A stretch of 64,000 bases of DNA from Eucommia ulmoides. Its lineage: Eukaryota; Streptophyta; Magnoliopsida; Garryales; Eucommiaceae. The position numbers were made by a program, and so were the translations under genes. This document shows positions 1,533 to 59,300 of this stretch, piece after piece. Numbering within the stretch: position 1 is the stretch's first letter; every line of letters starts with the position of its first letter. Below the pieces are notes generated by a model. That model had not been told where the DNA came from, made no database searches, and saw only the letters and a program-made list of their open reading frames with translations. The stretch is taken from positions 24,191,077 through 24,255,076 of the forward strand of contig CM028338.1 of the NCBI GenBank assembly GCA_016647705.1. The letters run 5' to 3'.

Positions 1533-3782
1533 ATGGATGTTGAAGTGATTGATGTAGAAGAGGAGAACATGGAGCTGCGGCGTGACATTGTTGATGATGG
1601 AGATGATGAACCCAATGATTGTGGAGATGTGAATGACTCTGGAAACTCTTCGTGTCAGGATGAGGATGGGGAAGCTGTGCCATATGTGGGCATGGAGTTT
1701 AATTCGGAGCATGCTGCTAAGGCTTTCTACGATGAGTATGCAAGGCATGTGGGTTTCAGTACTTGTGTAGGACAATGTATCCGGTCCAAAACTGATTTGG
1801 AAGTTAGTGTTAGGGAGTTGTTATGTGCCAGAGATGGCTTGAAAAAAAAGACTAGTGCTAGATGCGATGCAATGATTAGAATAGAGTTGAAAGGTCAAGA
1901 GAAATGGGTTGTTACAAAATTTGTGAAAGAGCACAGTCACTCCACAGATATTCCTAGTAAATTGCATTACCTTCGACCACGCAGGCATTTTGCTGGTTCT
2001 GCAAAGAATATGGCTGAAACTTACCAAGGTGTGGGAGTTGTTCCCAGTGGTGTTATGTATGTGTCAATGGATGGAAACCATATCACAGAAGACACAGATC
2101 CTGGATCTAGGAATCCCCCTCCTCAAGAAACATTACGTTCAGTTAAGAATGTGGGGCCTGCTAGATATGCTGCTAGACATGCTAGTCGAAAAAGGACCTT
2201 AGGGAGGGATGCTCAAAATCTGCTGGATTATTTCAAGAAAATGCAGGCTGAGAACCCTGGATTCTACTATGCCATTCAGCTTGATGAAGATAATCGTATG
2301 GCTAATGTCTTTTGGGCAGATGCAAGGTCAAGAACTGCTTATAGTCATTTTGGCGACACCATGACACTGGATACAAAGTATAGAGCGAACCAATATAGAG
2401 TACCATTTGCTCCATTTACTGGAGTGAATCATCACGGGCAGACAATTTTGTTTGGCTGTGCATTGCTTTTAGATGAATCTGAAGCCACGTTTTTTTGGCT
2501 TTTCAAGACATTTCTCGCTGCAATGAATGATCGTGCACCTGTCTCTATAATTACAGATCGGGACAAATCCATACAGACTGCTGTTGCTCAGGTGTTTCCT
2601 GTAACCCGCCATTGTATTAGCAAGTGGGATGTATTAAGAGATGGCCAAGAAAGGTTGGCTCATGTATGTCATGCACGTCCTAATTTTCAGGTGGATCTTT
2701 ACAACTGTATAAACTTGACTGATACAATTGAGGAGTTTGAATCATCTTGGGATTCCATCCTAAATAAATATGACCTCATAAAAAATAATTGGCTCCAGAA
2801 TTTATATAATTTACGCAGACAATGGGTCCCAGCATATTTTCGGGATTCTTTTTTTGCTGCAATTTATTCCAATCAAGGATTTGAGAGCTCCTTTTTTGAC
2901 GGTTATGTGAATCAACACACTACTCTACCTATGTTCTTCAGGCAGTATGAAAGAGTTTTAGAGAATTCCTTTGAGAAGGAAGTAGAAGCAGATTTTGATT
3001 CTATATGCACTACACCGTTATTAAGAACTCCATCACCTATGGAGAAACAGGCAGCAAATGTTTATACAAGGAAAATATTTTCGAAATTTCAAGATGAATT
3101 AGTTGAGACATTTGTCTATACGGCAAATATGATTGATGGTGACGGGACTACCAGCACTTACAGAGTCGCTAAATTTGAGGATGACCGGAAGGCATACATT
3201 GTATCGCTAAATGTTTTAGAGATGACAGCAAATTGTAGCTGCCAGATGTTTGAGTATTCAGGAGTACTATGCAGACATGTTTTGACAGTTTTCACTGTGA
3301 CAAATGTACTTACTCTCCCACCCCATTACATCTTGAACAGGTGGACAGTATCTGCAAAAACTGGGGTTGGATCAGATGTACCTGGTGAACTACATGGACA
3401 AGAGACACTGACAAAGAGATACAATAATCTCTGCAGGGAAGCAATTAAGTATGCAGATGAAGCTGCTATATCTTCAGAGACCTATAACGTGGCAATGGAT
3501 GCTGTTAGAGAAGCAGTGAAAAAGGTAGCTGCTGCAAAAAAAAATATTGCGAAAGTTGCGCCTCCCAGCTCACAAGTTATTGGGACCGGTTATGATGATC
3601 GGCAAGTCACCTCTACTTTGGCTCAGGAGGCAACTCCTTTATTGTGGCCACGCCAAGATGAAATGACTCGCCGGTTCAATCTTAATGATGGTGGTGTTCC
3701 AGCTCAACCTGTTGCTGATTTGAATCTTCCACGCATGGCGCCCGTGTCTCTTCACCGTGATGATGGCCACATCGATAATATG
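1533..3782 (+). CDS. FRS3: FRS3-like exon 1 (codons 1-750)
   Basis: Holds the acidic N-terminus, the FAR1 zinc domain, the MULE transposase domain and the SWIM finger. It ends ...HIDNM before the donor GTAGGC at 3783. Reading through the donor stays open to a TAA at 3897-3899, so retention of the 167-bp intron 1 would give a 788-residue protein without the C-terminal modules and NLS-like end. Confidence 0.95.
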
Positions 3783-6700
3783 GTAGGCATATTCTTTTTC
3801 TTTTGTGGGATTGTTTTTGTGCAGGTTTTTATTTTATTATTATTTTTAAACCTTTGGGTGTTTTTTACCCTCTCATTCAAAACATTTATTAATTTCTAAT
3901 TGAGGTATGTTAGTTGATTTGGTTATCAAATATATGACCTTGTATGTAGGTTGTTCTTCCGTGTCTTAAGTCAATGACCTGGGTGATGGAAAATAAGAAT
4001 TCTGTTCCCGCAAATAGAGTGGCTGTAATTAACCTAAAGGTACGCATCTCATAGCATAACACATGGTTCTGTTTGATGCTCGGTTCCTGCTAATGTGAAT
4101 TAGGTGAGCATGAAAGTGAGAAACTTGTGGGAATTTTATATATAGATCATCGAATAAGTACTTGTATGATTCCTATGGTATTAAATAATATTGGCTTGGG
4201 TGACTTTGGCTTGTTTGGTTGTGAAGTGCATTTAATGTAAGTGATTTAGCTGTTCATGCTCCCTAGCGGTAGATTTTAATATGCTTTCCAAATCCTTGCA
4301 GTTGCAAGATTATTGTAGGACAGTATCTGCAGAGTCGGAGGTTAAATTTCAGCTCTCAAGGGTCACATTAGAGCCCATGTTGAGGTCTATGTCCTACATC
4401 AGTGAGCAGCTTTCTGCACCAGCAAATAGAGTTGCAGTCATCAATCTGAAGGTATGACTATCTGTGAAATCAAATTGACAAATCCAAAATTCATTTCCAT
4501 AAGTCAACTCACCTTTTTTTTTTTTTAACAAAAGAAAGGTTTTTAATATATGACCTAGCCTTCATTGGTTCTAATTTCACAACAAGACCTTGCCATGCAG
4601 GGTGTAATGCCTGATATATTTAATCCTCTTTAAATGACGAATAGCCTCTTCATTTTCTTTTTCCTTCTTCAGAACTAACAATCCATTACAACTATGTTTG
4701 AAAGGCAACATTAACTGATACACAGTGCAACATTATCTTACCATTTTGAGATGATGTTCTTTAGTAGTCTAGTCACTAGTGCAAACAATAGTTACTAGAA
4801 TATAATACCCTTGCGAACTGCAAATCAATGCAGCCATTTCAAATATTCCCTTTAAGTTATGGGATGACAAACATAATTTTTGCTCTCAAATTTCCATTTT
4901 TGTTTTGGTTCGAACACATTCAACATTCTATAGATGTATGCTTGAGAGTATGTATGAGACATAATGAACTCTAATTATAATTTATAAGACAGCATATTTA
5001 TACTCAAATTTTACACCTTAATAATATATACACAAAAAGATGTTATATGTCGATAGCTAAGCGAAAAATAAGCTATCATTGGTGGATGTTTTGACAAAAA
5101 TTAGCTAGCCAGCTAGCGTAGGCAAAACCATTTAGACAAAACAAATAAACTGTTTAATAGTAATGTAACAAATAAAACATTAAAAGATTAGGGAGTTTAA
5201 TATAACTACACTCAAAACTTTAAAACTAAAGGCAGTAATTTATGCTGTTTAAAATGGGCAATATCTGCACTCCTAAAATCAACTAATACACTTTATTCAA
5301 AGTCAAATTACGAAAGACCCATTATTTAATGTCAAATTATGAAAATCAACTGCCATACTCGTTCCACTTTATTTATTGTCAATTTTTACAATGCATTTCA
5401 CATTTGTAGTGCAATATTATTCTCTTAACAATAAAAAAACTAAAATGAAAAAAAAAATCATAATAATAATTTTTTAATAAAAAATTATTTGTATCAATAC
5501 TTTAAAAAATCACTTTTGTTTTTTATTGAATTGGAAAAGTAAATGGAGCGTATCATTTGTTCAACCATTGGGTCAAATTATATTATAATACATCATCAGA
5601 AAAAAAACAATATTTTTTTTTTTTTCGTTTTTTTCTTTAAATATCAATTTCGAATGGCAATGGACAATACTAAAATCCGAATAATGAATGTTAAAAGTTT
5701 GATGGAAAATAGAATTTTTTGAACAAGAATCACAAAAAATGTTAAATTGGTAAAAGACGAATTAGAAGAAAATAAGAACATGCTAAACATTTAATAGTTT
5801 AGATTAAGTGATGGGTCTTTTTGTAAATTAGCTTTGAATAAAGTGGGTGAAATAGTGTAATAGTTGATTGTAGGAGTGCTAATAGCGTTGCCCTATAAAA
5901 TTGACTTGCTTAATTGAATCTGATTTTATTTAGCTACTTTTAGCCAGTAAAATAAAACATTAGCCTGTAAAAAATTTAAAAAATTAAGGTCTAAATTTTT
6001 ACCTCATATAAACTATAAAGTAATAAGTGTAGTTATACAATTAAAATGATAACTATTGAAGATTTTGACTAATTAGACAGAAAAATAATATATTTTGGAG
6101 CAATATGCAAATATTTAAAGATTGGGAGTAACATGCAACTATGGCCAACTTTGAAGATAAAATCTAAAATTTAATCAATTGAAGATTGAGCAACTTGATT
6201 GCATTTAATTGGCGGCTGATCCTTTTATATATACTATAGATTTGTCACTAGACACACCCAAGGTACCCTTTTACCATTTTCACTTGTCTCAGCACCCACA
6301 CATAGGTCTTAGAATCAGCATCTTTTACCACTCTCTATAGGAAACAGACAGTTTACTGACTGGTTTCATTCAATTGGAAATTCTTCAGAAATATAGCCAG
6401 AGTCAATGAGGAAAAATCCCCAAAACAAAATTAGCCCTATTACCCCCTTCAATTGACCAACAAACGGGGAGTAGTTTGCATTGAAAAGAAAAATAAAGGA
6501 GCGCGCATGCTGGCCTCTAGAAGACAATTGGAAGATCTACTGGATAAGGGGACCGGTGGCAGCTAAACGATTGGAGAAAGAGGCAGTGAGGCAATGAGCA
6601 AGGGCCCCAGGATTCTGATTCAGACGATCTGTGGAGAGGTTAGTCTAGAAGCCGGTTTGGCTAACAAGAAGACTATTGCTTAATGGGCCTCTTTAAGGAC

Positions 6701-9700: not shown

Positions 9701-12700
9701 TTTCTCACAATAATAATAATTTGCATTATGTTGAATTGAATAAAATAATCAATTTTATTATTTTTCTAATTGTACAATGAGACTACATATAAGAGTAATT
9801 ATGAATAAATAAAGAAACTAACTAATGACTAATAATAACTTTCATAATCTACATATTTGACTTTCCCTATATACAAATAATAATAATATTGAATATTCCA
9901 ACTCTCCTCCTCAAGTTGGTATGGAGATTTCTTCCATTGTCACCTTGCATACTAGATAGTCGAATATCTTTTCTGGTAATTTTTTTGTTAGAATGTCTGC
10001 GATCTGTTCGGTAGTCGGTACATATGGCATACATATTTGTCCACTATCTTTTCTTTGATGAAATGCTTGTCCACTTCCATATGTTTTGTCCGATCATGCA
10101 GCATCGGATTGTGAGCAATTGCAATAGCTGATTTGTTATCACAGTAGACTTTTATAGGTGCTGAATTAGATATCTTCAACTCTTCTAGTAATCTATTAAT
10201 CCATAACACTTCACAGATGTCGTGAGCCATTGATCTGTACTCCGCTTCTGTGCTACTTCTAGCTACGACATTCTGTTTCTTGCTCCGCCATGTGATGAGG
10301 TTCCCACCAACAAAGGTATAGTAACCGGAGGTCGATCTACTGTCCGTGACGCTCCCAGCCCATTTTCTGCATCGGTACAAACCTCTATAAGTTGGTGGCC
10401 ACGTTTCTTATACAAAATTCCCTTTCTGGGGGTACCCTTTAAGTACCTTAGGATTCTATAGGCGGCCTTGAAGTGTTCCTGTCCTGGTGAGTGCATAAAT
10501 TGGCTGACCATGTTTATGGCAAAGGCTATATTCAGACGGGTATGTGATAAGTAGATCAACCGCCCCACTAGTCTTTGATATTGTTCTTAATTTATCACAG
10601 CTACAGGTTTGGCCGGTTGTAGCTTCTTATTCGGTGCGCTTGGAGTTTCTGCAACGTTGCATCCGAGTAACCCTGTTTCATTCAGTAGGTCGAGTATATA
10701 CTGTCTTTGACTCACAAATGTGCCTTCCTTTGTTCTAGCAAATTCCATTCCAAGAAAATACTTTAACGGACCTAAGTCTTTGATTTCAAAATTATCAGCA
10801 AGTTTTCCTTTAAGTCTTTCCAACTCGTCACTATCACTTTCTGTTAAGATGATATTATCTACATAGACAGTTAAAATGACAATCTTACCATCAATTGAGT
10901 GTCTATGGAATATTGTATGATCTGCTTGGCTTTGTTGATAACCATGACCTTTTACAGTGGTTCCAAAGCGTTCAAATCACGCCTTAGGAGACTATTTTTG
11001 GCTGTATAGTGACTTTTTTAGCTTGCGCACCTTTTCTTGCCCCATCTTTCTTTCAAATCCTAGTAAACTCATGAACATTTCCTCCTCCAAATCTCCATTT
11101 AGAAAGGCATTTTTTACGTCTAATTGGTGTAGTAGCCAATCAAGATTCACCGCTAGGAACAATAGAACCCGAATCGAGTTTATCTTAACAACTGGAGCAA
11201 ACGTTTATTGGTAGTCTATCCCATATGTCTGTGTGAACCCTTTAGTTACGAGCCTTGCTTTCTATTGTTCTATGCTTCCATCTGCTTTACACTTGACTGT
11301 GAATACCTACTTGCACCCGACTATCTTTGTATCTTTTGGCGAATCAATTATTTCCCACGTACCACTCCTTTTAAGAGCATTCATCTCTTCCAAAACTGCT
11401 AACTTCCAACCTGGATCACCTAGTGCTTCCTCAATATTCCTTGGAATAAACAGATTAGTAACTTTAGAAATAAAGACTCTATAAGGTTCGGAAAGTTTTG
11501 TGTAGGATACATATCTAGATATGGGGTGATTAGTGCAGGTTCTGACTCCTTTCCTAATGGTTATAGAAATATTGAGATCTGAAGGAATACTGGAATGAGA
11601 AGGTTCATTGGGAGGTGGTAAAAAGATAGGATTACCTGGGTGTGAGGGTTCATTGGGAGATGACAGAGAGATAGGATTACCTGGATCATTGCCTGGGGAG
11701 TCAGATTGACCTTGTGCTAGAACGGTAGGCTGATCATGATTGTGGTATTTCTTCATCTGTTCGTGAGGGAATTATGCTCAGTACTAGTAGGGATCCCTTT
11801 TTGTTTTTCAATATTTTCATCACTTGTTTTTGACTGATTTGGAGTAAAATTTCTAAGATTGTGATAGTGAGAGGATCATCAGTGACCCAAAAATTCCCTT
11901 CCATTCGATTCTCTCCCTGAAGGAGATTTTTGTCAAAGAAACATTTTCCATAAATGTGACATCCATACTACTATAAAAAACATGATTTTTTTTTTGTTTA
12001 TGGATTGTAATACTTATACCCTTTTGATTTGGTTCATAACCGATGAACACACATTTTTCTGCTCTAGGATCAAGTTTAGATCGAAATTGGATAGGAATAT
12101 GAACATAGAATGTGCAGCCAAATACTTTAAGAGGCAAGTTAGTTGATATCTTAGAAGCTGAAAAATGTGTTTTGCAATTATCAAATGGTGTGTAGTTTAC
12201 AATACGTGTAGGCATGCGATTTATTAAATATGCAATTGTTAAAAGAGTATCGCTCTACAAGTATTTTGGAATATGCATAGAAAACATGAGTGCACGTGCA
12301 ATTTCGAGTAAGTGTTTATTTTTTCGTTCAGCAATGCCATTTTGTTGGGACGTGTCACGACATGTGGATTGATATTAAATACCATTTGTTTTCAAAAAAC
12401 TGCCTAAACATTCGTTGAAACATTCTGTTCCATTATCTATGCGAAGAATGCTAGATTTTATTTGAAATTTGTTTTCAAGCATAATGCAAAAATCTTTAAA
12501 TAAAGTTTCTACATCAGATTTTGCACGCATCAAATATGCCTAACATAAATGTGTGTGATCATCAATAAATGTCACAAACCATATTTTTCTGGATGGTGTT
12601 GTGATTTTTGAGGGACCCCATACATCGTTGTGAATTAAAGAAAAAGATTTGGTTGCACGATATGATTTTGAAATATAAGAAGTACGCTGACTTTTTGCAA

Positions 12701-15700
12701 ACAAACAACTTTCACAATGAAAAGAAAAACAATCCAAATTCTTAAAGAATGTCGCAAACAAATGTTTAAGATATTGAAAATTTGGATGTCCTAGTCTAAG
12801 GTGCCAAAGTATGATTTTATCACGAATAGACGTTGAACTCATACTACTGGGATCGTGAGTTGTTTTATTCCTTAAGGAGTTATCATCGAAGTAATAAAGG
12901 CCATCTACCAGTCTAGCATTGCCAATTGTCTTCTCGGAGCTTTGGTCCTGAAATAAACATTGAGATGCAGAGAACATGGCTTGACAGTTAGAATTTTGCA
13001 ATAGTTTACTTACAGATAAGAGGTTACAAGTAAGTTTAGGAACGTGAAGGACCGTTTTTAGATTAATACTAGTTGAGATTTTTATTTGATCTTTTCCTGC
13101 AATGGGTGAAAAACTAACGTCTGCAATCTTAATTCTTTCGTTACCAGAACAAGGTGAATAAGTATTGAAAATGTGATAAAAACATGTCATATGATCAATA
13201 GCACCTGAATCGATAATCCAAGGCGCTGAGTTTAAGGAACAAGAAAAGGCTCTAGAGTTGCTACATGTTTGAGCTAAAGACGCATTAGAAGTACCAAATG
13301 ATAGATTGACAGTCAGCAATTTCAGAAGTTGATCAATCTGCTCTTTGTTGAATGGAATGGTTGCAGCTTCATGCGCAGAAGGATAAGATCGGTTAGATTT
13401 TTCTCCCGATTTGTTGCTCTTCAAATTTGTCGGTTTCCCATAGATTTTCCAGCATGTTTCCCGTGTATGACGGGGCTTGTTGCAGTAGTCGCACCATATA
13501 CGAGGGGGTTCTCCTGCTCGGCGTTGAAACCTATTGGAGTTAGCATTAGCAGTAGCCAAAGCAAACTGGTCAATTGGAGCAGCTGTTGGACCGATAATCT
13601 GCGGCTTGTTGAGCATAACGTTCCGACGAGTCTCCTCCCTTCGGACCTCTGAGAAAACCTCATTGATTGAGGGACGAGGCTGACGACCAATGATTCGTCC
13701 CCTAACTTCGTCAAGTTCCGGTTTCAGTCCTGTAAGGAACTTAAAAACACGATTATCATCCACCAATTTTTTATAGTGGTTATAATCCTTGGTTGAATGC
13801 CATTCATGATCGTCGAACATATCCTGATCCTGCCATATTCTCTTCAATGAATTGAAATACTTGGTGATATTGTTTTCGCTTTGACGAACATCACGAAGTT
13901 TTAGAGTCAACTAATACTTTTGAGATTGGTTTCCCAGGTCAAAATACATCTTATTGATATTGTCCCAAAGTTCATTTGCCGTAGGGTAGCACATTTAGTT
14001 GGAGCTGATTTCTTCATCCATAGAGTTCACGAGCCATGTCGTAACCATGGAGTTTTCAGCATCCCAAGTTGTATGCAACGGATTTGTGATGGCGGGCTCC
14101 TTTACATTTGCTGTTAGATATCCCATCCGTCTTTTCCACGGACATACATTCGCACCGATTGAGACCAACGCAAGAAATTGGTTCCATTCAATCGAAGATT
14201 CGGATGGCGTGGGATTCGGAAGGGAGATTCTTTGGTTTGGTGAGTTGGCAGGATCTTGGGGTGGATTTCGAGGTAACGTCGAACATGGTGAAGGCAGGAG
14301 AAATATCATCAGAGGCTTAGGATCGTCAGGTTAACCTTCAACGAGCTAATCTCGCGTGACAAAGGCCTGAACTGCAATCGAACTAATCTCGCGCGACAAG
14401 GCCTAAACTGCAATCGAACGAATCTCGCAAGATAGGGCCAGTGTTGCACTTGAACGAACCTCGTGAGATCGATTTCGTCGGCTGTTAGGGTTCCGGCAAG
14501 ACTGTTGGCGGTTGTAAGGGACCAACGCGAAGTCGTCGTCGGCTGTTAGGGTTCCGGCGGGTGCTATCGATGGCTTGTAGAGGACCAACGAGGCTTCATC
14601 GTCAGTTGTAGAGGGCCGCGAGTGTTCGTCGGTGGTTGTAGGGGACCGGCGAGTGCTATCGACGGCTTGTAGAGGACAGACAAGGCTTCGTCGTCGGTTG
14701 TAGAGGGTCGTGAGTGTTCGTCAGTTGTAAAGGGAGCTTGTCGTCGGCTGTAGGAGGGCCTTTGGTTGTCGCTTGGCTATAAGGAATGCTGGCGAAGCTT
14801 TGTCGGCTGTTGTAGGAGGCCGGCGACGGTCGTCGACAGCTGTAAAGGGCCGGCGGCGGTCGTCGATGGCTTGTAAAGGGCCGGCGGCGGCTGCAAGGGA
14901 AGTGGCTAGCTAAGGTTTAGTTTTAGCTCTGATGCCAAATTGAATAAAATAATCAATTGTATTATTTTTTTAATTGTACAATGAGACTACATATAAGAGT
15001 AATTAGGAATAAATAAGAAAATTAACTAATGACTAATAATAACTTTCCAAATCTACATATTTGACTTTCCCAATATAAAAAAAATAATAATTTCGAATAT
15101 TTCAAGATGTTTTTTGTTTAGTAAGATAAGTTTATTAAAAGGACGCAAGGCATGTCAAGCCAAATATAAAACAAGAAATCTAAGCCAAATATAAAACAAG
15201 AAATCTCAAGCTCCTCAAGAAAGTCGAGGGGAGCGAGGTTCCCCATGGGAAAATGACCCCTAGACCAAAAGAAGAGCAAATACCCCCCAAAAACAGATGG
15301 TTTAAGAAAAGGCAAAGATAAAGAAGTGCACCAAATGCTCCATAACAGAGCTGTATAAATCATCTTCCAACTTCCGAGACTTGCAGAAATCGTCATAATG
15401 ATAATAGGTTATTGTAGAGATTTGCATGCACCAAGAAATCCTACCCAAAGAGAATAGCTTGGACTGGAGGTCACTGTATTGAATAGAATAAAAAGAGATG
15501 GGTGAGAGTCTCTTCTCACACGGACACATGCTGCCATCTATTGGGGAGGTGGAAGCTCCTCCAGTGAAGATTGTCTAGAGTGAGGATGGCATTTGAGGTG
15601 ATTGTCCATCCGAAGAAGGTTGTTACCGTAGGAGTTTTAGTCAACAAATTACTTTCTAAAAAATAATCTCTTGGGTTGGTTCCAAGTTCCAACGAAAGTG

Positions 15701-17033: not shown

Positions 17034-20000
17034 GTATGCACACCATCCAAAGGCATCATCATATCACTTTCCTTGTCATTCTATCTTCTTTATTTTTCTT
17101 ACACGTGGCACACCCATAAAATCCCACTTTTACACCTCCAACAACGACAACAACAACTAAGCTTTCCCACTTTTACACCTCCAACAACGACAACAACAAC
17201 TAAGCTTTTATCCCACTTATGTAGGGTCGACTACATGAATCCATTTACGCCATAGAGATCGATCAAGGGCCATCCCCTCCGTCAGGTTTAATGTCGCCAC
17301 ATCATTTCTAATAGTCTCGTCTAATGTCTTCTTAGGTCTACCTCTCCCTCTAGTAGTCCTCTAAACTTGAACTAAATCACATTTTCTCACTGGTGCTTCT
17401 ATGGGTCTTCTATGCACATGCCCAAATCATCGTAAACAATTTTCTCTAATTTTCTCTTTGATGGATGCTATTCTTAAATTTTCTCTAATAGTTTCATTCT
17501 TAATTTTATCCATTCTTGTCTTTTCACTCATTCACCGTATCATCCTCATTTCTGTCACACCAATTTTCTGAACATGATTCGTTTTTACCGCCCAACATTC
17601 TGAACTATAAAGAAGAGTTGGTCTTATAACAGTTTTGTGGAATTTTCCTTTAAGTTTCAACAGAATCCTACGATCACAAATCATCCCAACTGTACTTCTC
17701 CACTTTAACCAACCTGCCTTGATTCTATGCATAATATCCTCGTCGATTACGCCATTGCTCTGAATCATTGAACCTAAATATCTAAAACAATCAACTTTTG
17801 GTAACTCCTTATCTCCAATTTTGACTGAACCATCGTTTCTTCGGGCATTACTAAAATTGCAATGCATGTATTCTGTCTTGCTTTTACTAACCTTCAAACC
17901 TTTAGACTCTAACGCTTCTCTTAATCTTTCTAATTTTGTATTAAGACCTATTCTACTTTTGTCTACTAATACGATGTCAACCACATACAATATACTCCAA
18001 GGTACTCCATCTTGAATATGTTTTGTGAGCTCATCCATCACTAGAATGAAAAAGTAAGGACTTAAAGATAATCCTTGATCTAAGTCTATATTAAATAGGA
18101 AATGCACAAGTATTGTCTCCTCCTATTCGAACACTAGTAACTATACCTTCATGCATATCCTTAATTACCTCGATGTACACATTGGATACCTGTTTCTTTT
18201 CTAGTACCCACCACAAAACTTCTCTGGGTACCCTATCGTAAGTCTTTTCCAGGTCTTCAAATACCATATGTAAATCTCTCTTCTTTTCTCTATATTTTTC
18301 TATTAATCTCCTGAGTAAATAAATAGTTTCAGTGGTGGATCGGCTGGGCATAAATCCAAATTTATTCTCTTCTGTGCTCGTTTCATGTTTTATTCTATAT
18401 TCTATCACTTTTTCCCAAAGTTTCATAGTATGACTCATAAATTTTATACCTCGATAGTTCGTGTAACTTTGAACATCCCTTTTTTTTTTTATAGATGGGC
18501 ACGAAGATACTCCTCCTTCAGTCGTCAGACATTCTGCCATTGAAAAGTCTAGTTAACCACTCTATCCCAATATCTCCCAAACTTTTTCACACCTCTATAG
18601 GGATTTCATCTGGCCTTACTGCTTTTCCAATTCGCATATTTCTTAGTGTTATTCTAACTTTTGAAGCCCTAATTCTTCTATGAAACCTATAAATCTTAGC
18701 TGAATATAAACTAGGTATCTCTAGTCTAGATTCTCTAACGTCATTCTCATTAAATAAATTATAAAAATAATTTTTCCATCGTTCCATAATCTCTTCATCT
18801 TTCACCAGTACCTTGTCATCAGTGTCTTTGATGCATCTGATACTTCCAATATTTCTAGTTTTTCGTTCATGTCACCTAGTAAGTTTAAATGTATCCCTCT
18901 CTCCCTCCTTTGTATCTAACTTTTGATATAAATTATCATACACCCTAAATTTTGATTCCTTAATTACTTTTCTCGCTTCCGTTTTTGCATGTTTATACTT
19001 CTCCAAACTCTCTTGATTTCGATATTTTTGTCATTCTTTATAACTTATTTTTTTTGTCCCGAATGGCTTTTTGGACCTCTTTATTCCACCACCAATTTTC
19101 TTTATATCGTGGTTCTCCTTCTCTACAAATTTCTAAAACTTCTCTTCCTATCTCTCTAATACGATTTGCCATATCAATCCACATTTTGTTCACATTCTCA
19201 TGTCTCTTCTATAACTCATCATTGCTAATTTTATCCTTAACCAACTTCATCTTTTCACCTCTTAGATTTTTCCAATGTATCCTTGCATGTCTACTTATCT
19301 TAGACTCTTGTTTCCCCCTCAAAAACTTGAGATCAGTTACCATTAGTCTATGTTGGGTAACAATACTCTCTTTGGGTATGACTTTACAGTCCTTACATAT
19401 TAAATGATCACTCGCCCTAATAAGGACAAAATTTATCTAGCTATTCCTCTGACCACTCTTAAGTGTGATAAGGTGTTCATCCTTTTTCCTGAAGCATGTA
19501 TTTAGAAGAACTAAATCATATGTCATAGTAAAATCTAAAATCATCTGACCCATTGCATTCATCTCCCCAAATCCATAACCACCATGTACTTTCTCGAAAG
19601 TCTCTCTTTCCTTCTCGATATGTCCATTCAAGTCTCTCCCAATAAATATTTTTTTTTAGGTATATTTTGAACGACTTCGTCCATCTTCTCCCAAAATTCT
19701 CGTATAACATTTTCTTACAATCCAACTTGGGGAGCGTACACACTAATAACGTTAATCACCTCCCCTTCAATCACCAACTTCATAACCATTATCCTATCGC
19801 CAATCCTCCTAATATCAACAACGCTATCCTTTAAATACCTATCTACCATGATGTCCACCCCATTCTTATGTTTGTTCTTCCTCGTATACTATAATTTATA
19901 TCCCGTACTCTCAATTTCTCTAGACTTCTCTTCAACCCACTTAGTTTCGTGCAAGCATCGAATATTAATCCTCCGCCTACACATCACATCCACCAATTCT

Positions 20001-26000: not shown

Positions 26001-29000
26001 GGAGCGAACATTGTTCTACACTGAACCTGATGTCAAAACTCTAGCCATGCCTCTGAAATATTTCTCACTAGGAAGTTCTGTCATTGCATCCCTCGTGGAT
26101 TTAAACAAGTTTCCATGCCCTGGGCCTTCAATCCTCTTTCAAAGTTGGGTTTCCTTGCCTTTTCTCCCCATGCATTTCTGCAACAAAAGTTTTCTTATCT
26201 CCGTTGTAAGAACACTTGTGAACTGTTGGAAATTACATGCACCAACTGTGGAAATGTCACAGCCAAGCATAGGCAGAGACTTTTTGTGGGAATATACCTC
26301 CTCAAAGCTAGGCATCTTCGAGTGAGGATTAGGAATGATTGGTCTTGTTTTTGCAGGCTAATAAGTTTGATAGAGGTCAATTATATTGCAGCCACTGCCC
26401 AAGACAAGGATTTGTTTGCTTAAAAAAAAAAAAGAAAAAAAGAAAAAGGAGAAGATTTTTTTGCTCTATCAGCCTGATGGGGGTAATTAAAAAGTTTTGC
26501 TCAAGGTCGAGCCGTTCATCTAAGGAAGGTTATAAATACTCTTATTTCAGAGGCTCATAATGTTTTTGTGGGGGCTCATGCAGATTTTGGATGGTGTTCA
26601 TATTGCAAGGAAAGGGTGGAGGATAGACTTAACAAGGTGCCTTGGGTTCTGTACAAATTGGACATTAAGAAGGCTTATACTTGTGCCAATGGGGTTTCTC
26701 TCTTTAAGCTTCGGAAAATGGGGTTTGGCTTGATGGGAGTGGTGTATAGAGTGGCATATTTCTACCGCGGAATTTTTGATTCTGGTTAACTGTTCCTGGG
26801 CAGGGTTCCTATTTTAGGAGGTTGAAATAGGGGGACCAGTTATCTCCGCTCATATTCCATTTCGTGATGGAGATCATTGCTTTACATTCTAGGCCGGCAA
26901 CAACAGGCCTATTTCATTGCTCTTTGATTTGTAGATGTCACTGTTTGAGAGTGCTCATCTCACACATGTTTTATACAATGTTGTCTTATTTTTCAATTGA
27001 GTGGGATGCAATGGAGATATATTAGATATGTTTTGAAGTGGTGTCAGGGTTGAAGATGAATTTGGGTAAATTGAATATTTTGCCGGTTGGTGATGTTAGA
27101 AGCCTGGAGACTGTAGCCTTAGCTTTGGTTTGCATAGTAGGCACCCTATCTTATACCTATCTTAGCTTAAGCAAGTCTAAGGTGTTGTGATTTGGAGGTT
27201 GAGATATTGCGAAGTGGTTAGCAGGGTGGAACTTGATGTATTTGTTGAAAAAGGGGAGGCTTGTTCATTGAAAAGTACTCTTTCGAATCTTCCGATGTAT
27301 TTGATGTCATTGTTCCCTAGTCTTGCCTCAACAGCTTAGTCATCGGTGAAGCTGCAAAGAGACCTTTAGGATCCTCTTGTTGTCTAGAGTGGAGAAGAGT
27401 AGTGTTAGCTAGGTTGGAAATATGCAAAAATCTGCAATTTGCTAAGTAAATCAGCAAGGAGTTTGGGGATGACATGCTTAAAGATTGTTGAGGGGACAAT
27501 GCTTGTTTTTGGCTTGATATCTGATGTGGTGATACTATGCTGATGATTTTTCTTCCCCTTTTTGATTGTTAATGCAAAAGAGAGAGCATCAGAAGAATAA
27601 GGTGGCGTTTGGTTAGTGTTTCCACTTTTTTGAACCCAACTGGAATGGGTTGGGTTGAGTTGAATTGGGTTGGGTTGAGAATTTTGGGAACAGAATTGCG
27701 TTTGGTAACGACAATTCTTATTTTGTACTGAGAACATAATGTGTTTGGTAACGATTTTATCCTAAAACTAATTTTTTTTTTGAATTTTTTTTTTGTTTGG
27801 CGGCGGCGCTGGCGGTGTCAGACGGTGGCGGACGCCGGCGCCAGCGGTGGTCGGACGGCCTGCGGGCGGCGGAGGTGGCCGGCGACGGTCGCCGGCGGCG
27901 CTGACGGTCGCCGGTGGCAGCGAAAGGTCGCCAGCGGTGGCCGGAGACGGGGGCGGTCGCCGGATGGTGGCCGGCGGCGGCGGATGGTGGTGGTCGGCCG
28001 GCAGATGAAGTAGGAAGTTGAGAACTTTGGATTGAGTTTTTTGGGCACAAAAAGAAACAACTTTTTTTTGTTTCTGGTTTCTTTAGGATTTTGAGAATCA
28101 ATTCCTATTTTTTGGGTTGGGTTGGGTTGGGTTGAGTTTTGTGTTTACCAAACGCGTTCCCAAAAATCAAACCCAAAATTTTTGGGTTGGGTTGGGTTGG
28201 GTTGGGAACACTAACCAAACGGGGCCTAAGAGGCTTTAACCTTGATGGTTAGCCTTCACCTTTATTTTTGATTGGTTAAGGTCGTGTTTGGTTAGTGTTC
28301 CCACTTTTCCCATTCCACTTGGGATGAGATGGGATGGAATGGAATGAGATGAGAATTTTGTTTCCTTTTGGGAACGGAATTGCATTTGGTAATGAAATAA
28401 TTCTATTTCTTTCTGGGAACAGAATTGCGTTTGGTAACGAATTATTCTGGAATTGTTTTCTCAACAATTGTTCTTTTTTCAATATATATTTTTCTTTAAA
28501 TGTATGTTAATAAATATCAAATTACACCAAATTAAAGAAAAAAAACATTAATTAAAAATAGAGACTCATGCACACAACCTGTTTGTGATAATGTGCCAAA
28601 GAAGAAAACCGAGACCCAGTTGGAAAATGTAAACGAAATCGATGTTAGTCCAATTGTACATAAGATAACTCAAATTATTCGGGGAGAAAACGGCTCTTTT
28701 TCAATGGAGGAGAAGTTGGAAGCCATGGATTTCGACCTCAATGCAGAGATTGCCGATAAAGTTATGAAGAGATATTCTAGAGTTCCGCATTTAGCATTCA
28801 AAATTTTCAGTTGGGCGAATCATAGAAACGGGTTTTCTCACACTACTCAGACATACAACACCATGATTCACATCGCTGCTCAAGCAAATCAATTCGAATT
28901 AGTCGAGAAATTGGTGGAGGAGATGGAGAAGAACTCTTGCCAAAATGATACCAAGACATGGACAATTCTTGTCTCTCACTATGGGAAATCAAAATCAATC

Positions 29001-29151
29001 GCAAAAGCCCTGGACATAAACCCTAAATTGATTTGCAAAATCATTTTTCTGAACCCTAAACCTAAAACAATTTCGTGAACGGAATCGATTTCGTCGATTC
29101 AACAAAGAGAGAGAGAGATGGCGATGCAGATGAATGAAGTAGTGATTTAAC

Positions 29152-29189
<38 letters not shown>

Positions 29190-32100
29190 TGATTTCGTCG
29201 GGATGGCGATGCAGATGAATGAAGAAGGAGCGATGGAGATGGTGATGCTGATGAACGAAGCGGGCGGTGGCGAGCAACAATGAGCGGCAATGGAGCGAAG
29301 CTAAGAGAGAAGGCGAAGCATGATAGGGAAAAGGAAAATAAAAATGATAAGGAAAAGGAAAAAGAAATAAGGCTAACAAAAGTTGAACAAGGACTTCATT
29401 AGACAATTTCAAAAATTCCAAGCGTGTCCTTTTGCTTGGGATGGGTATTTTGAGAATGAAAAAAAAACTACTTTTTTTTTTTATTCTACTTTCTTTAAGA
29501 ATTCAAGAATTAATTCTCACATTTTGGGATGGGATGAGAACATAATTGGGTTTGCCAAACGCATTCCCAAACATCAATCTCAAAAATTTTGGGATAGAAT
29601 GGGTTGAGTTGGGTTGGGCACACTAACCAAATGGGACCTAAGTTGCTCTTTTCACCCCTGAAGTTTTCGTGTGATCTCACTTTACCCCTGATATTTTAAT
29701 TTTTGCAATTTTCCCTTGAAGTTTACATTTTTGCATTAATTTGGTCCAATTTCTTTATTCCAATCAATTTTATTGCTGTCATTAGTCATGTAACTTGCAC
29801 ATGAGAGAAAAGTCTATAATAAATTAGGACAATTTTTTTAAAACGTCTTTTCTTTAAAGGTTGGGATTGATTTGAGGGAAACAGATGAAAAGATTGGATT
29901 ATAAAAGTTTTTTTTGGGGAAAATTCCCTCCCAAAAATTTTACACCCTTTTACATTTGTATTTAGTGCCTTTAGGCATGGGGAATTCCTAGTAGTATAAT
30001 ATAAAAAATATTGTGTTATTTTGCATGCGTGTAGTTTGATTATTGTTGCACTTTGGTCCTTCCTTTGGCAAAAATTGATAGCAACTAATCAATCGGACCA
30101 AACTGATACAAAAAGAAAATTTTAGGGGGCAAATTGCAAATGAGAGACAAATAATAATATGTAAAGTAAGTTGTTTGAGCCAACATTCTTGATGTAATTT
30201 AATGGCGAGCTAAATGAAACAGTAAGAGAGAAAAAATCGTAGAAAGGTGAGTTTCGCAACAGGTGAAAACTTCTTAGAGTAATCAAGTTCATACATTTGA
30301 GTGTAACCTTCAACTAGAAATTGGGCCTTTAGTCAATTAATGGTGGCATAAGGATGAAATGTGACCATATACCACCATTGCAGCAAATAATGGTCTTACC
30401 CGAAGGAGTGATACGAGGTTTCAAGTGTCAAGTCAACATGGTGTAAGCAAGCATTTCTCTGCCATTGTGGTTTTCCAGTTAGAATGAGAAATGGCCTATG
30501 AATTAGAATTAGGAAAAGAAACAAAGGCAAAGAAGCCAAAAAGTAGTAATTGGCTAAATATAAGTATGAGACAAAATAAGGAGGAAATGTGTGGTCCAAC
30601 TTTCGGACAATATTGGTCGGTTGAAATCATATGTTGGTGTGATAAGCAGATGAGGATTTGAGGACACTAGGACAATTTGTACAACTAATGTTAAGGGTGC
30701 CAACGCAACCTTTTGATGATGAGTGTGGGCCTACCGTGGAGGATGAGGGGCAACTTGGGGGGATGGGGTCAGGGAATGATGAAGATGGACTAGGAGTACA
30801 AAGGCTATCAGAAGGAGAAGCATAATATTAAGATCATTTTGGAAGTGGGGCTCGGAGAAATAAGGACTTGATTCGAAGAAAGGTGATATAGCAAGCCCAA
30901 AGAAACAATATAAGGAGGTATTGTAACAATAATACATTTTTGACTGCGAGAATAGCTTAAGCAAATATTTTTTATTTATTTTTTGATCTGAGTGCCCAAC
31001 TTGTCCCCTACAGACAACAACAAAATATATGGGGAGTTAATTTGAAGAATGAAGAAATTGATAAACAAGGAAGTGCGGGATATTATCATACAAGGTAGAT
31101 GGTGGCTTTCAATATATTAAGTGACAAGATGTGAGAATTGCATCACCCAGAGGTGCTTAGGAATATGCATATGAAAAGTGAGAGTGACCCTAAGAAGGTA
31201 GTTATTCTTATGATCACGATCACGACCACGACCACTCTGAGAGCCACTAATATGACCATCACGAAAGCTAGCACTGCAATCACGACCTGTATGATCACCC
31301 AGAGAGAAATGTCTAGAAGGGGTGTGTGGGGAACTAAAGTTGAATGATCTGTCAGACAGATTTGTTGACTCAGAATTCTTTGGAGTAGTGGCACGCTGAA
31401 ATCAAGAATAGTTCTCACCAGAAAGATGCGAGGGTAGCCATCCAGAGAATGGAAGATCAAACTAGCTCAATTTTGGTCTGTAGGTTGGCCAAAAACTTCA
31501 TGACAACCATCAAGAGTGGCAAAGTATTCAGCAAGAGTATGGGTGATCTGCTAGACATGAGATTAATCAATCGATTCTTTATACATGCCATGAGATGGTT
31601 CGCAAACAACAATCAAGCATCCTATTGCCCTCTTGAAGGCTCCACGCGAGTGCCCGTACCAGCTACATTAGTTTCCATCGAGTTTTACGATTTGAGTCAT
31701 AATTTGCCCATCTGATTTAGTCTACTGGTGAATCTTCTTTATATCCTTAGTTGAATCATCTTGTATCCTCTGTTGAAGTAGACCCAATTAGATGACATTG
31801 TTTTCCATGTTGGTTTAGGGCCAATCTCGGCCTGCCCGAATTGTAATTAATTACTCCCATTCAACTTGCCATTAGTAACAGGTATTAGCAAAGAGAATGA
31901 AAATTCAACTGAAAAACAAACTATTGTTATAAAAAATAAAGGGCCGTTCACCTAACCACAATGAAAGATGGAATAAATATAATATGATTCAATTAAAATA
32001 TGGGCCAAGGAACTCAAAAATACATGGATGAAGAGATGTAACCAGCGAATATGCATTTTTTTTTTTGGTAATTCAAAGAGAGGGATTGGATTAGCTCATG

Positions 32101-55162: not shown

Positions 55163-56177
55163 GGGCTCGTTTGGTAACCATTTCGTTCCCATACCATGTA
55201 GTGAGATGAGAATGAGATGGGATGAGAATCCTGTTTCTTTCTTGGAAACAAAATCGCATTTGGTAACGACAACTGTTTTTTGGATCTGGGAACAGAATCA
55301 CGTTTGGTAACTATTTTATTCAAGAAATCAAGAATGATCTCTAAACGACAATTAATAAATCATCAAGCAATCAGCCCTAAACCACAATAAAAAAAAATCA
55401 TAAAACAATCAAACCCTAAACCCTAATCGAAATTGAAATCTTAAACCCTGATCGAAATTAAAATCAAAATCCTAAACCCCAATCGAAATCGAAATCCTAA
55501 ACCCAAATCGAAATCGAAATTGAAATTCTAAACCCCAATCGAAATCGAAATCCTAAACTCCAATCGATTACATCTTGAAATCGAAATTGAAATCGAAACC
55601 CTATTTCAAAATCGAACCTCTTGTTCGATTTAGATTTTGAAATCGAAATTGATTTCATTTTCAAAATCGAACCTGTTGTTCCATTTCGATTTCGAAAACG
55701 AAATCGAAATCAATCGAAACCCTTTCAATTTTGATTTTGTTTTCGAAATCAATCAAAATCGAAATTAGGGTTTCGATTTCGATGCTAATAAGACAACGAA
55801 GATGATGATAGAGGAGCAATAGATGACGGCTGGAGAAGAAGCAAACGACGGCGATGAAGCAGACGATGGAAGATGACGAAGAACAATGATGAAGAAGGAC
55901 GGACGACGAGAGGATAAGAAAGCCGGAAAAGGACGACGAATAACAGATGACGGCGATGGAAACACGATTAAGAAGGTCATTGAAAATAGGATGGGAATAG
56001 GTAGAAACAAAATTTTTTTGTTTCTCATTTCTAAAGAAGAAAGAGGGATGGATTCTAGTTTTGGAATAGAATAGGAACGGAAACAAAATTTACCAAATGC
56101 TTTGCCCAAACAGAAATCCTAAAAATTTGGGAATAAGATGAGAATTTTTGGGATGAGAATGGTTACCGAACGAGGCC
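55163..56177. mobile_element. Tourist/Harbinger-like non-autonomous element 3
   Basis: 1015 bp. Left end gggctcgtttggtaaccatt and right complement ggcctcgttcggtaaccatt match at 18 of 20. Flanks tta (55160-55162) and ttg (56178-56180) are a probable worn 3-bp duplication. Subterminal DNA matches elements 1 and 2 (gggatgagaa, gggaacagaatcacgtttgg). The interior differs from both: telomere-like aaaccctaaaccctaa (55411-55426), a minisatellite of cccaatcgaaatcgaaat units to about 55600, inverted versions of it to 55780, and a gacgacg/gatgacg-rich block (55790-55960). No transposase. Confidence 0.75.
55411..55780. repeat. Telobox and aatcgaaatcgaaatc minisatellite
   Basis: Starts with aaaccctaaaccctaa, then about eight irregular units of ctaaaccccaatcgaaatcg. 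After 55600 the same words appear mainly as complements (gatttcgatttc), so the two halves can pair. Confidence 0.7.
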
Positions 56178-56360: not shown

Positions 56361-59300
56361 ATGGACAGTAAGATAAGAAACAAAAGAGACCGAAAGCGCA
56401 AACTTGAGGTGCGAAATTTATCTACGTAAATGTTTCTATGAAAATTAATCATTTTGTTGGTATTTATTTAGATATGCCTCTAGTGCTTGTTGAACTCTCG
56501 TTAATATTGTAGCTCTGAGGCCACTTGTAATGATGACAACCTTAGATTGGAAGAGAAGGCAAATCTCTTAGGTTATGAGTCAATGTTAAACGCGAAAGAT
56601 TATAAGGTAAGTTATATATCCTTGATTTAACCAATTGCGTCATAGAATTATTTATAAGTTGAGTTATTTATTTCTAAATAAGTCAATAATGTTATAGAAT
56701 TATTAGTTGTTCATTTATACAGTGTCCCATTGAGTAATGAGTTATTGCTCCCTGGTTAGACCAAATGTGTTAATCCTAGTGGCACATTAGCTTAGGTTCG
56801 ATGCCACCAATACACTGTTAGATTGTCAATTTCATTTGAAGAATGTTAAAAATTCTTTGTTACAAGTTTATTTGAATAATGTTACAAGTGTTTTGTCCGA
56901 TGTTACAAGTTTTCTATCCAATATTACAAGTTTAATTTGTCCAAGTTCAGGATTTTTAATTATATTGGAAGCAAGTTACAAGTTCTTTGATAAATGTTAC
57001 AAGATTTATTTGTCCTAGATACAAGTTATGAATTTTATTTGAATAATGTTAATGGTTCATTGTCCAATGTTATAAGTTTTTCATCAAATGTTACAAGTTT
57101 AGAGTCAATAGTTACATGTTCTTTGACGAATGTTACAAGTTTTTGTATCCAACGTTACAAGTTTTCTATCCAATGTTACATGTTTCGGGTTAATAGTAGC
57201 AAGTTTCATTTGTCTAAGTTTAGGATTTTTAATTATATTGGACGTATGTTAGAAGTTCTTTGACGAATGTTACAAGTTTTCTATCCAATGTTACAAGTTT
57301 AGAGTTAATAGTTATAAGTTTCATTTGTCCTAGATACAAGTTGTGAATTTTATTTGAATAATGTTACAAGCTCTTGGTACAACATTACAAGCTTTCTATC
57401 CAATATTACAAGTTTAATTTGTCCAAGTTCATGATTTTTAATTATACTGGAAGCATGTTACAAGTTCTTTGATAAATATTACAAGATTGATTTGTCCTAG
57501 ATACAAGTTGTGAATTTTATTTGAATAATGTTAATGGTTCATTGTCCAACGTTATAAGTTTTTCATCAAATGTTACAAGTTTAGAGTTAATAGTTACATG
57601 TTCTTTGACGAATGTTACAAGTTTTCTATCCAATGTTACACGTTTCAATTATCCTAGATACAAGTTGTGAATTTTATTTGAATAATTTTACAAGTTTTTT
57701 GTCTAATGTTACAAGTTTTCTATCAAATGTTACAAGTTTAGGGTCAATAGTTACAAGTTTACAGTTTGTCCAAGATTAGGATTTTAATTATATTGGAAGC
57801 ATGTTACAAGTTTTTTGATGGATGTTACAAGTGTTCTTACCAATGTTACAAGTTTCATTTATCCTAGATACAAGTTGTGAATTTTATTTAAATAATGTTA
57901 CAAGTTCATCATCCAACTTTACAAGTATTCAATCTAATGTTGCAAGTTTAGGGTATTAAGTTACAAGTTCTTTGACGAATGTTACAAAATTTCTATCCAA
58001 TGTCACAAGTTTCATTTGTCCTAGATATAAGTTGTGATTTTTATTTGAATAATGTTACAAGTTCTTTGCTCAACATTACAAGTATTCTATCCAATGTTAC
58101 AAGTTTAGGGTTAATAGTTAAAGTTTTAATGAATTTCCTAAGACAATTAATAAATATACGATGTTTCTAAAATTTTAAATTGTTTGTTTTCGGAACCCCC
58201 CATTGGGACGAGGCTAACTCTCATTACCATATTGGATGTAATAGTGTCTTTGACCTAATCGTAGATAGTAGTTGTCCATGAAATGAGGGTTTGGAGGTGT
58301 TCTAGGGTTAAGATTTAAGAGATTGTCTTTAAAGTTCTTGCTATGGTTCTTTGTAAGATTTGATTCTATTTCTTGCTCTCTGAATGCTCAAGGTAGGAGG
58401 TTGAAAATTACTTCCAAGGATGTGCACCACATCCTTGGAATAAGTTATAATGGACCTATCATCAAGAAAGATGGTACAATCGATGAAATTAAGGAATTTC
58501 AGAGTATGCCTAGTTTAGGAGGCTAATTTGTAAAACTTGAGGACCATAGGCGAGAACCATGTAACATGGAATCGGCCGGGATAGAATTCTGGGTAAAGTT
58601 TTCGTTATTATTGATTCGATGCTTTTTGTGTTCAACAATGAGTACAAAATTATCGCTATCCTACTTGCATGTCTTGAATCCCTTGGACACAATCACCAAC
58701 AGGGATTGGGCAAGCTTGATGTACCATTTTATTTGTGCTGTTTTGAAGAAGTGGCTAAAATACGACACACATTAGTCATCCGGATGCCTATTAATGTTGA
58801 TGGTAAGTGATAGTAGAGTAGAATTGGCATATTATTTTCAACCTATTAATCTCGCATCCAATTAACCTTTTATTCTCTTTTTGCAAAGATTTTTTACTTC
58901 GATCATTTATGCCTGTAGAGGATGTTGTTCGTCATCCCCAAGATAAAAGGGCGTATCCCCGGTTTCTGGCTTGGGATAAGGATAAGATAAAACAACAAAT
59001 GGATCATCTAGAAGAATTAAAAGTGTTTGATAAGGAAGAGGCATTTTTGTTTTTCACATTCTTCATTTTTTTCCATTCATTTGTTTTTTTTTTTCCAATG
59101 TTTTGGTAATTCTTGTTTGTATTCCATTTTTATTTGGTTTAGATCTTGCTCGCGCCGGTTGTCGATCCATAAAATACGGAGGAAATGGCAGAGAATTGGA
59201 ATATGAAGAAAGAGAGTAAACAAAAGATGAAAGAAAAGGTTGGGAAGGGTGATCTTCATGTATTTGAAACTAGGATGAAGAGGTGTGAATCGGAGCTGAA

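Follow-up and report, generated by a model that had tools for sequence, protein, structure and literature searches.

Capture of host gene pieces by PIF/Harbinger transposons is already known. Grapevine PIF elements with captured exons and introns are reported in a paper of 2008 (PMC2528002), and Pack-PIF elements are reported from maize and rice in a survey of 2022 (Gisby and Catoni, PMC8903248). Here we describe a further example from Eucommia ulmoides. It lies in a stretch of 64,000 nucleotides (assembly GCA_016647705.1, contig CM028338.1, forward strand; C14:24191077-24255076), which is called the window below. The subject is a pair of neighbouring transposon copies, element 1 and element 2, and the gene piece inside the latter. 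An annotation made earlier from the letters of the window, the first-pass annotation, had remarked that gene-capturing Harbinger-type families are less described. In comparison with Pack-MULEs the remark is fair; published examples nevertheless go back at least to the grapevine report, and a survey has followed.

Elements 1 and 2 are, with a probability of about 87%, non-autonomous members of PIF/Harbinger, element 1 being a miniature inverted-repeat transposable element (MITE) and element 2 a Pack-type element with a 446-bp copy from a pentatricopeptide repeat (PPR) gene. Their parts, in coordinates of the window, are as follows.

27598..27600: left target duplication of element 1, TAA
27601..28226, plus strand: element 1, a predicted Tourist-like MITE of 626 bp, with the ends GGTGGCGTTTGGTTAGTGTT... 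and ...AACACTAACCAAACGGGGCC
27791..28015: GC-rich (76%) island of element 1, the common interior of a short subfamily, diverging faster than the arms
28227..28229: right target duplication of element 1, TAA
28277..28279: left target duplication of element 2, TAA
28280..29638, plus strand: element 2, a predicted Pack-type PIF/Harbinger element of 1,359 bp
28280..28562, plus strand: left arm of element 2, common to other long members
28369..28440, plus strand: two TGGGAACAGAATTGCGTTTGGTAACGA-like subterminal repeats of element 2, 45 bp apart
28567..29012, plus strand: captured PPR gene fragment; donor-like sequence at C11:12835720-12836165, minus strand
29018..29638, plus strand: right arm of element 2, common to other long members
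29639..29641: right target duplication of element 2, TAA

Both elements are in one orientation, each between perfect TAA/TAA flanks, and the spacer between them is 53 bp long with the two duplications counted in (28227-28279). They have a common end type, GG....GTTTGGTTAGTGTT. The left ends are GGTGGCGTTTGGTTAGTGTT in element 1 and GGTCGTGTTTGGTTAGTGTT in element 2, and the right ends, read inwards, are GGCCCCGTTTGGTTAGTGTT and GGTCCCATTTGGTTAGTGTG, respectively. The genome (947 Mb in 391 contigs) was searched with the left-end pattern, allowing three mismatches at most, and the same pattern read backwards was used as the control. There were 5,766 matches genome-wide (2,851 + 2,915), against 21 (14 + 7) for the reversed control. 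The coordinates, the flanks and these counts bear out the first-pass annotation in its claim of two elements 53 bp apart with the same ends and TAA duplications.

The middle of element 2 corresponds to a PPR gene on contig C11. The two sequences are identical at 414 of 446 positions (93%) in an ungapped alignment whose limits are sharp, and the fragment matches the Pfam domain PPR_2 (1.7e-10). The C11 gene has an open frame of 1,053 aa with no stops, and no family ends were found in the 3.4 kb fetched at this locus (L010). When the genome was searched with the donor peptide, only the C11 locus and element 2 matched the stretch closely. The third match was another repeat block of the same C11 gene (34% identity); the best other locus showed 29% identity (E 1.5e-12), and shorter matches reached 37% at most. 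The fragment in element 2 appears to be single copy in this search. Element 2 is thus non-autonomous and carries a fragment of a host gene that is present elsewhere without element ends, as is characteristic of the Pack type. A donor-like locus for the interior, which the first-pass annotation had proposed to look for, was in this way found for element 2.

The family of elements 1 and 2 is assigned to PIF/Harbinger from sequence comparison, because a copy with the same ends, L059, has both DDE_Tnp_4 and Myb-like domains. L059 is 4,857 bp long, with its ends at 248 and 5104 and TAT/TAT flanks. Its open frames were searched separately for domains and showed DDE_Tnp_4 (PF13359) in two pieces (7.1e-14 and 2.3e-7) and Myb_DNA-bind_3 (1.9e-18); a match to HTH_Tnp_4 (8.4e-5) was below the cut-off. 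The search for an autonomous Harbinger with the same ends, suggested in the first-pass annotation, therefore led to a candidate, a transposase-bearing copy. L059 was reached by a protein search for relatives of L055, and one locus was read. L055 itself is 2,499 bp long with GTA flanks, and is a relative of L059 without ~2.5 kb of its middle. It retains a DDE_Tnp_4 remnant (5.4e-5) whose 23.3 bits are just under the curated cut-off of 24.8, and its match to Plant_tran (6.7e-4) is below the cut-off. At least 152 DDE_Tnp_4 matches were found in the genome.

The arms of element 1 are 84% and 85% identical to L059, and the left arm of element 2 is 78% identical. The last 74 bp of this left arm (28489-28562) are 90.5% identical to another transposase-bearing locus, L061, and the match ends 4 bp before the PPR junction. 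L061 was considered as a full-length partner of element 2 and rejected; it is a decayed relative without recognisable ends in 5.4 kb. Since the genome contains both a donor-like PPR locus and a copy that has these ends together with transposase domains, element 2 is regarded as a Pack-type PIF/Harbinger derivative whose middle appears to have been replaced by a gene piece. It offers a well-delimited candidate for gene capture by PIF/Harbinger, with the donor-like gene, the ends, the duplications and a transposase-bearing copy all in one genome.

The wider family was sampled in 20 regions of ~6 kb each, placed round exact left-end matches on contig C1. The 100 exact left-end matches listed cover contig C1 and contig C2 up to 14 Mb, and the 20 regions represent the first 22 of the 64 listed on C1, three of the 22 lying inside one region. 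A right end was present within 3.5 kb in 15 of the 20 regions. A script placed 14 of these; the other, L041, has both ends visible in the end scan and was skipped by the script, apparently through a chance internal match. In L040, L050, L053, L057 and L058, no right end was accepted within 3.5 kb; 5.6 kb lie between the ends of L040. The two window elements, the 14 from the C1 sample and 10 from among the loci of a genome search make 26 delimited elements. Identical 3-bp flanks were observed in 19 (17 TAA/TTA, one ATA and one GTA), the share of TAA/TTA being somewhat inflated as the script preferred these among four offsets. The other seven have no identical flanks, and several of the seven are poorly delimited.

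Six elements were examined for subterminal repeats (elements 1, 2 and 3, L014, L055 and L059). All six have a repeat of ~27 bp, spaced by ~45 bp, in one to four copies at the left end and nowhere else; in element 2 it spans 28354-28448. These repeats may be bound by the transposase or by the Myb-like protein. Left ends in tandem were observed in L044 (C1:4275270-4281300; positions 1569 and 1636), where they are preceded by ...GGAAACACTAA, and in L042 (5500-5572). Copies of the family seem to insert into one another's ends, because the family end itself holds the target TTA/TAA.

Two further interiors, those of L014 and L052, were considered as new gene captures and rejected, as no donor gene was recognised. 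The L052 interior is present in at least seven further places with 89-94% identity over at least 430 bp. The first part of the L014 interior is regarded as Harbinger sequence, because it adjoins transposase matches, within ~0.5 kb, at 15 places (matched by eye).

A possible origin of element 2 is as follows. The transposase-coding middle of a longer element would have been lost, and 446 bp from a PPR gene would have taken its place; the donor would be the C11 gene or a close relative now missing. The capture would have occurred when the repair of an internal break or excision gap switched template to the PPR locus. Elements 1 and 2 would presumably both be mobilised in trans by copies that have these ends and bear a transposase, and would have come to lie side by side through independent insertions. 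Gap filling with template switching is expected to leave one gene piece between two arms, a lost coding middle and extra bases at the junctions. At the PPR junctions, 4 bp on the left and ~5 bp on the right belong to neither neighbour. Gap filling is also argued for single-copy Pack-type elements in animals, where the report describes breakpoint microhomology as usual (PMC8277862). A fixed cargo slot in every long member was considered as well and rejected: in L014, L036 and L052, and less clearly in L012, the left arm continues beyond the point at which that of element 2 stops.

The survey of Pack-TYPE elements proposes a different model, the fusion of neighbours (PMC8903248). Under it, two nearby elements moved as one and took along the gene DNA that separated them, after which their inner ends disappeared. 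Elements 1 and 2, in the same orientation and with 53 bp between them, would then be on the way to forming another unit of this sort. Close neighbours are indeed frequent: among the 100 listed end matches, neighbours no more than 2 kb apart form five pairs, where uniform placement would give 0.36, and four of the five are on the same strand; two of the five are in one cluster, and some are nested insertions. For maize PIF elements, the survey likewise reports an excess of same-strand local pairs (PMC8903248). However, no remnants of inner ends were found beside the PPR piece, since allowing up to three errors revealed only the outer ends of element 2, and the PPR gene is on another contig with no such ends in the 3.4 kb fetched around it. 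Fusion is thus an unlikely route to element 2, and we infer gap filling ahead of it.

Element 2 is not the only member with a gene piece. L012 (C9) and L036 (C14) have both ends and TTA duplications, and contain a common stretch of a second gene, which has several exons. At the donor-like locus, L060 (C15), parts of a coiled-coil protein are encoded over several exons; no Pfam match to this protein was found over the cut-off. It may resemble plant nuclear matrix constituent (CRWN/NMCP) proteins. The match of L036 to L060 covers 333 bp at 89% identity. It runs unbroken through exon, intron and exon, the exons being inferred from reading frames, so the DNA copied in L036 appears to have been genomic. 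In L012, parts of introns are kept and the breaks are off the exon edges, as judged by coordinate comparison. Both copies contain stops, and their ratios of nonsynonymous to synonymous divergence (dN/dS) are 0.42 and 0.44; these values derive from only 8 and 9.5 synonymous changes and, with much history in common, are not independent. They are about as expected for dead copies of a conserved gene. A further copy of the coiled-coil gene, L034 (C11:607261-610365), has a dN/dS of 0.22 with stops present. It is damaged, has introns and has an end of the GTTTGGTAACC type nearby; possibly it was captured by that sister group.

Several observations weigh against the origin of element 2 proposed above. 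Its right arm is only 67% identical to L059. No microhomology was seen at either PPR junction. The PPR piece shows no intron, so that it may have been copied by way of RNA. Finally, the divergence of the fragment from the C11 gene is mostly synonymous, with 20 synonymous and 12 nonsynonymous changes (dS 0.27, dN 0.035, dN/dS 0.13). In simulations of neutral copies, so few nonsynonymous changes were obtained in 0 to 1 of 1,000 runs per setting, and ~60% of the copies held a stop. Because neutral drift rarely gives a ratio of 0.13, the direct donor may have been a sequence other than the C11 gene, or the fragment may be under constraint.

These data agree with a history of divergence mostly under constraint. 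In its simplest form, the immediate donor may be a diverged allele or a second copy absent from the assembly, with a recent capture. In a bolder form, which we regard as quite unlikely, the PPR frame has been under protein-level constraint inside element 2 since it left the donor gene. If true, the cargo of element 2 would long have been a functional product or decoy of PPR origin, and not a mere dead fragment. The captured frame would then be kept by selection and would give a short PPR-like protein, or else a transcript that acts on the donor gene, a role that seems to us improbable. The fragment does stand in an open frame of 180 aa without stops, and its dN/dS is below the values for the coiled-coil gene copies of L012 and L036, which contain stops. 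On the other hand, the search showed the fragment in one copy only, and the recent capture of a now-absent diverged allele or paralogue would give the same pattern. Under such a recent capture (simulation model B), up to ~12 neutral mutations on the branch of the copy are compatible with the data (P 0.14), whereas 16 give P 0.04. A lost donor and constraint within the element both fit the present data. With its mostly synonymous divergence, the PPR fragment is a clear case on which to ask if selection ever retains captured frames.

The first-pass annotation had seen different cargo in elements 1 and 2, and this holds for the gene fragment in element 2. The GC-rich island of element 1 is common to other copies and is not private. 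In the C1 sample, nine of the 15 elements are short copies (533-701 bp) with a GC-rich middle: L042, L044, L045, L047, L048, L049, L051, L054 and L056. The interior of element 1, after trimming 150 bp from each end, is covered 100% by every one of the nine. Element 1 is therefore considered to be an ordinary MITE, belonging to the most frequent kind in the sample, and its island was rejected as private captured cargo. Among the nine copies and element 1, mean pairwise identity is 0.74 in the island and 0.93 in each arm, and the gap fraction is 0.13 in the island against 0.03-0.04 in the arms. The island may be an ancient capture predating the amplification. It showed no significant match to L059 (best E 0.16); the right part of L059 contains a stretch with up to 59% GC. 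The island is also visibly rich in CG dinucleotides. Neighbouring copies with common ends can thus differ in kind, here probably one plain MITE and one Pack element.

A third element had been placed in the same family.

55163..56177, plus strand: element 3, non-autonomous, 1,015 bp, of a related but different end group, with flanks TTA/TTG

The claim that its ends are those of elements 1 and 2 does not stand. Element 3 starts with GGGCTCGTTTGGTAACC and not with GG....GTTTGGTTAGTGTT, and its duplication (TTA/TTG) is imperfect. Its own end pattern gave 1,167 + 1,178 matches genome-wide, against 4 + 3 for the control. At least eight near-full-length relatives with 68-75% identity were observed among the 40 of 5,211 candidates that were scored, and simple sequence in the middle of element 3 may help some of these eight alignments. 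No captured gene was seen in element 3. In the left arm and in the subterminal repeats, which are spaced by ~45 bp, it is related to elements 1 and 2 and to L059. Of 100 listed element 3 ends (2,345 in total), five are 0.65-1.3 kb from a transposase match, paired by eye, against 0.05 expected, and these five pairs are oriented as in L059. Element 3 is best placed, by its sequence, in a sister end group.

These results bear on the proposal in the first-pass annotation that elements 1, 2 and 3 are members of one cargo-capturing family of at least three, with unrelated interiors. Element 2 fits it, and related subterminal repeats are present in all three. Interiors that align across copies over their full length, which the annotation itself had named as evidence to the contrary, were found for elements 1 and 3: nine short copies each cover the whole interior of element 1, and element 3, whose ends differ and whose duplication is imperfect, has eight relatives of nearly full length. 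The three-member family was rejected on these grounds and is very improbable. Elements 1 and 3 appear to represent ordinary non-autonomous or MITE subfamilies.

Other features of the window are as follows.

1533-3896, plus strand: open frame of 788 aa with FAR1, MULE transposase and SWIM domains, a FAR1/FRS-like or Mutator-derived gene
12543-13910 and 17535-18107, minus strand: retroelement remnants, with Pol_BBD and gag_pre-integrase domains and a reverse transcriptase fragment
56827-58111: diverged tandem repeat array, motif AATGTTACAAGTTT, with periods such as 21, 63, 115, 157 and 482

Tourist-like MITEs derived from PIF/Harbinger resemble element 1 in being short, in their many copies and TAA duplications, and in having arms in common with a transposase-bearing copy. 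Element 1 differs in its GC-rich middle, which diverges much faster than its arms. Pack-MULEs likewise carry a gene fragment in a non-autonomous DNA transposon, but they belong to the Mutator superfamily and have longer duplications and other ends than the family of element 2.

In grapevine, Pifvine-3 is reported as a PIF family with captured host exons and introns, sometimes in several copies, which is similar to the captures described here (PMC2528002). Pifvine-3 is described there as carrying a transposase and an additional 5' region, whereas element 2 is without transposase. The same report includes a captured PPR fragment, but in a CACTA element. The Pack-PIF and other Pack-TYPE elements of maize and rice, as they are presented in the survey (PMC8903248), are close to element 2. 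They are non-autonomous, mostly with TAA/TTA duplications, and have common ends and an internal gene piece. Pack and non-Pack members occur in one end family there, and close pairs stand on the same strand, as in the window. A maize example contains gene pieces of 163 and 58 bp, compared with the 446-bp PPR piece of element 2. In contrast to the elements in that survey, element 2 seems to occur only once, and a copy with its ends and a transposase (L059) was read from the genome in which it lies.

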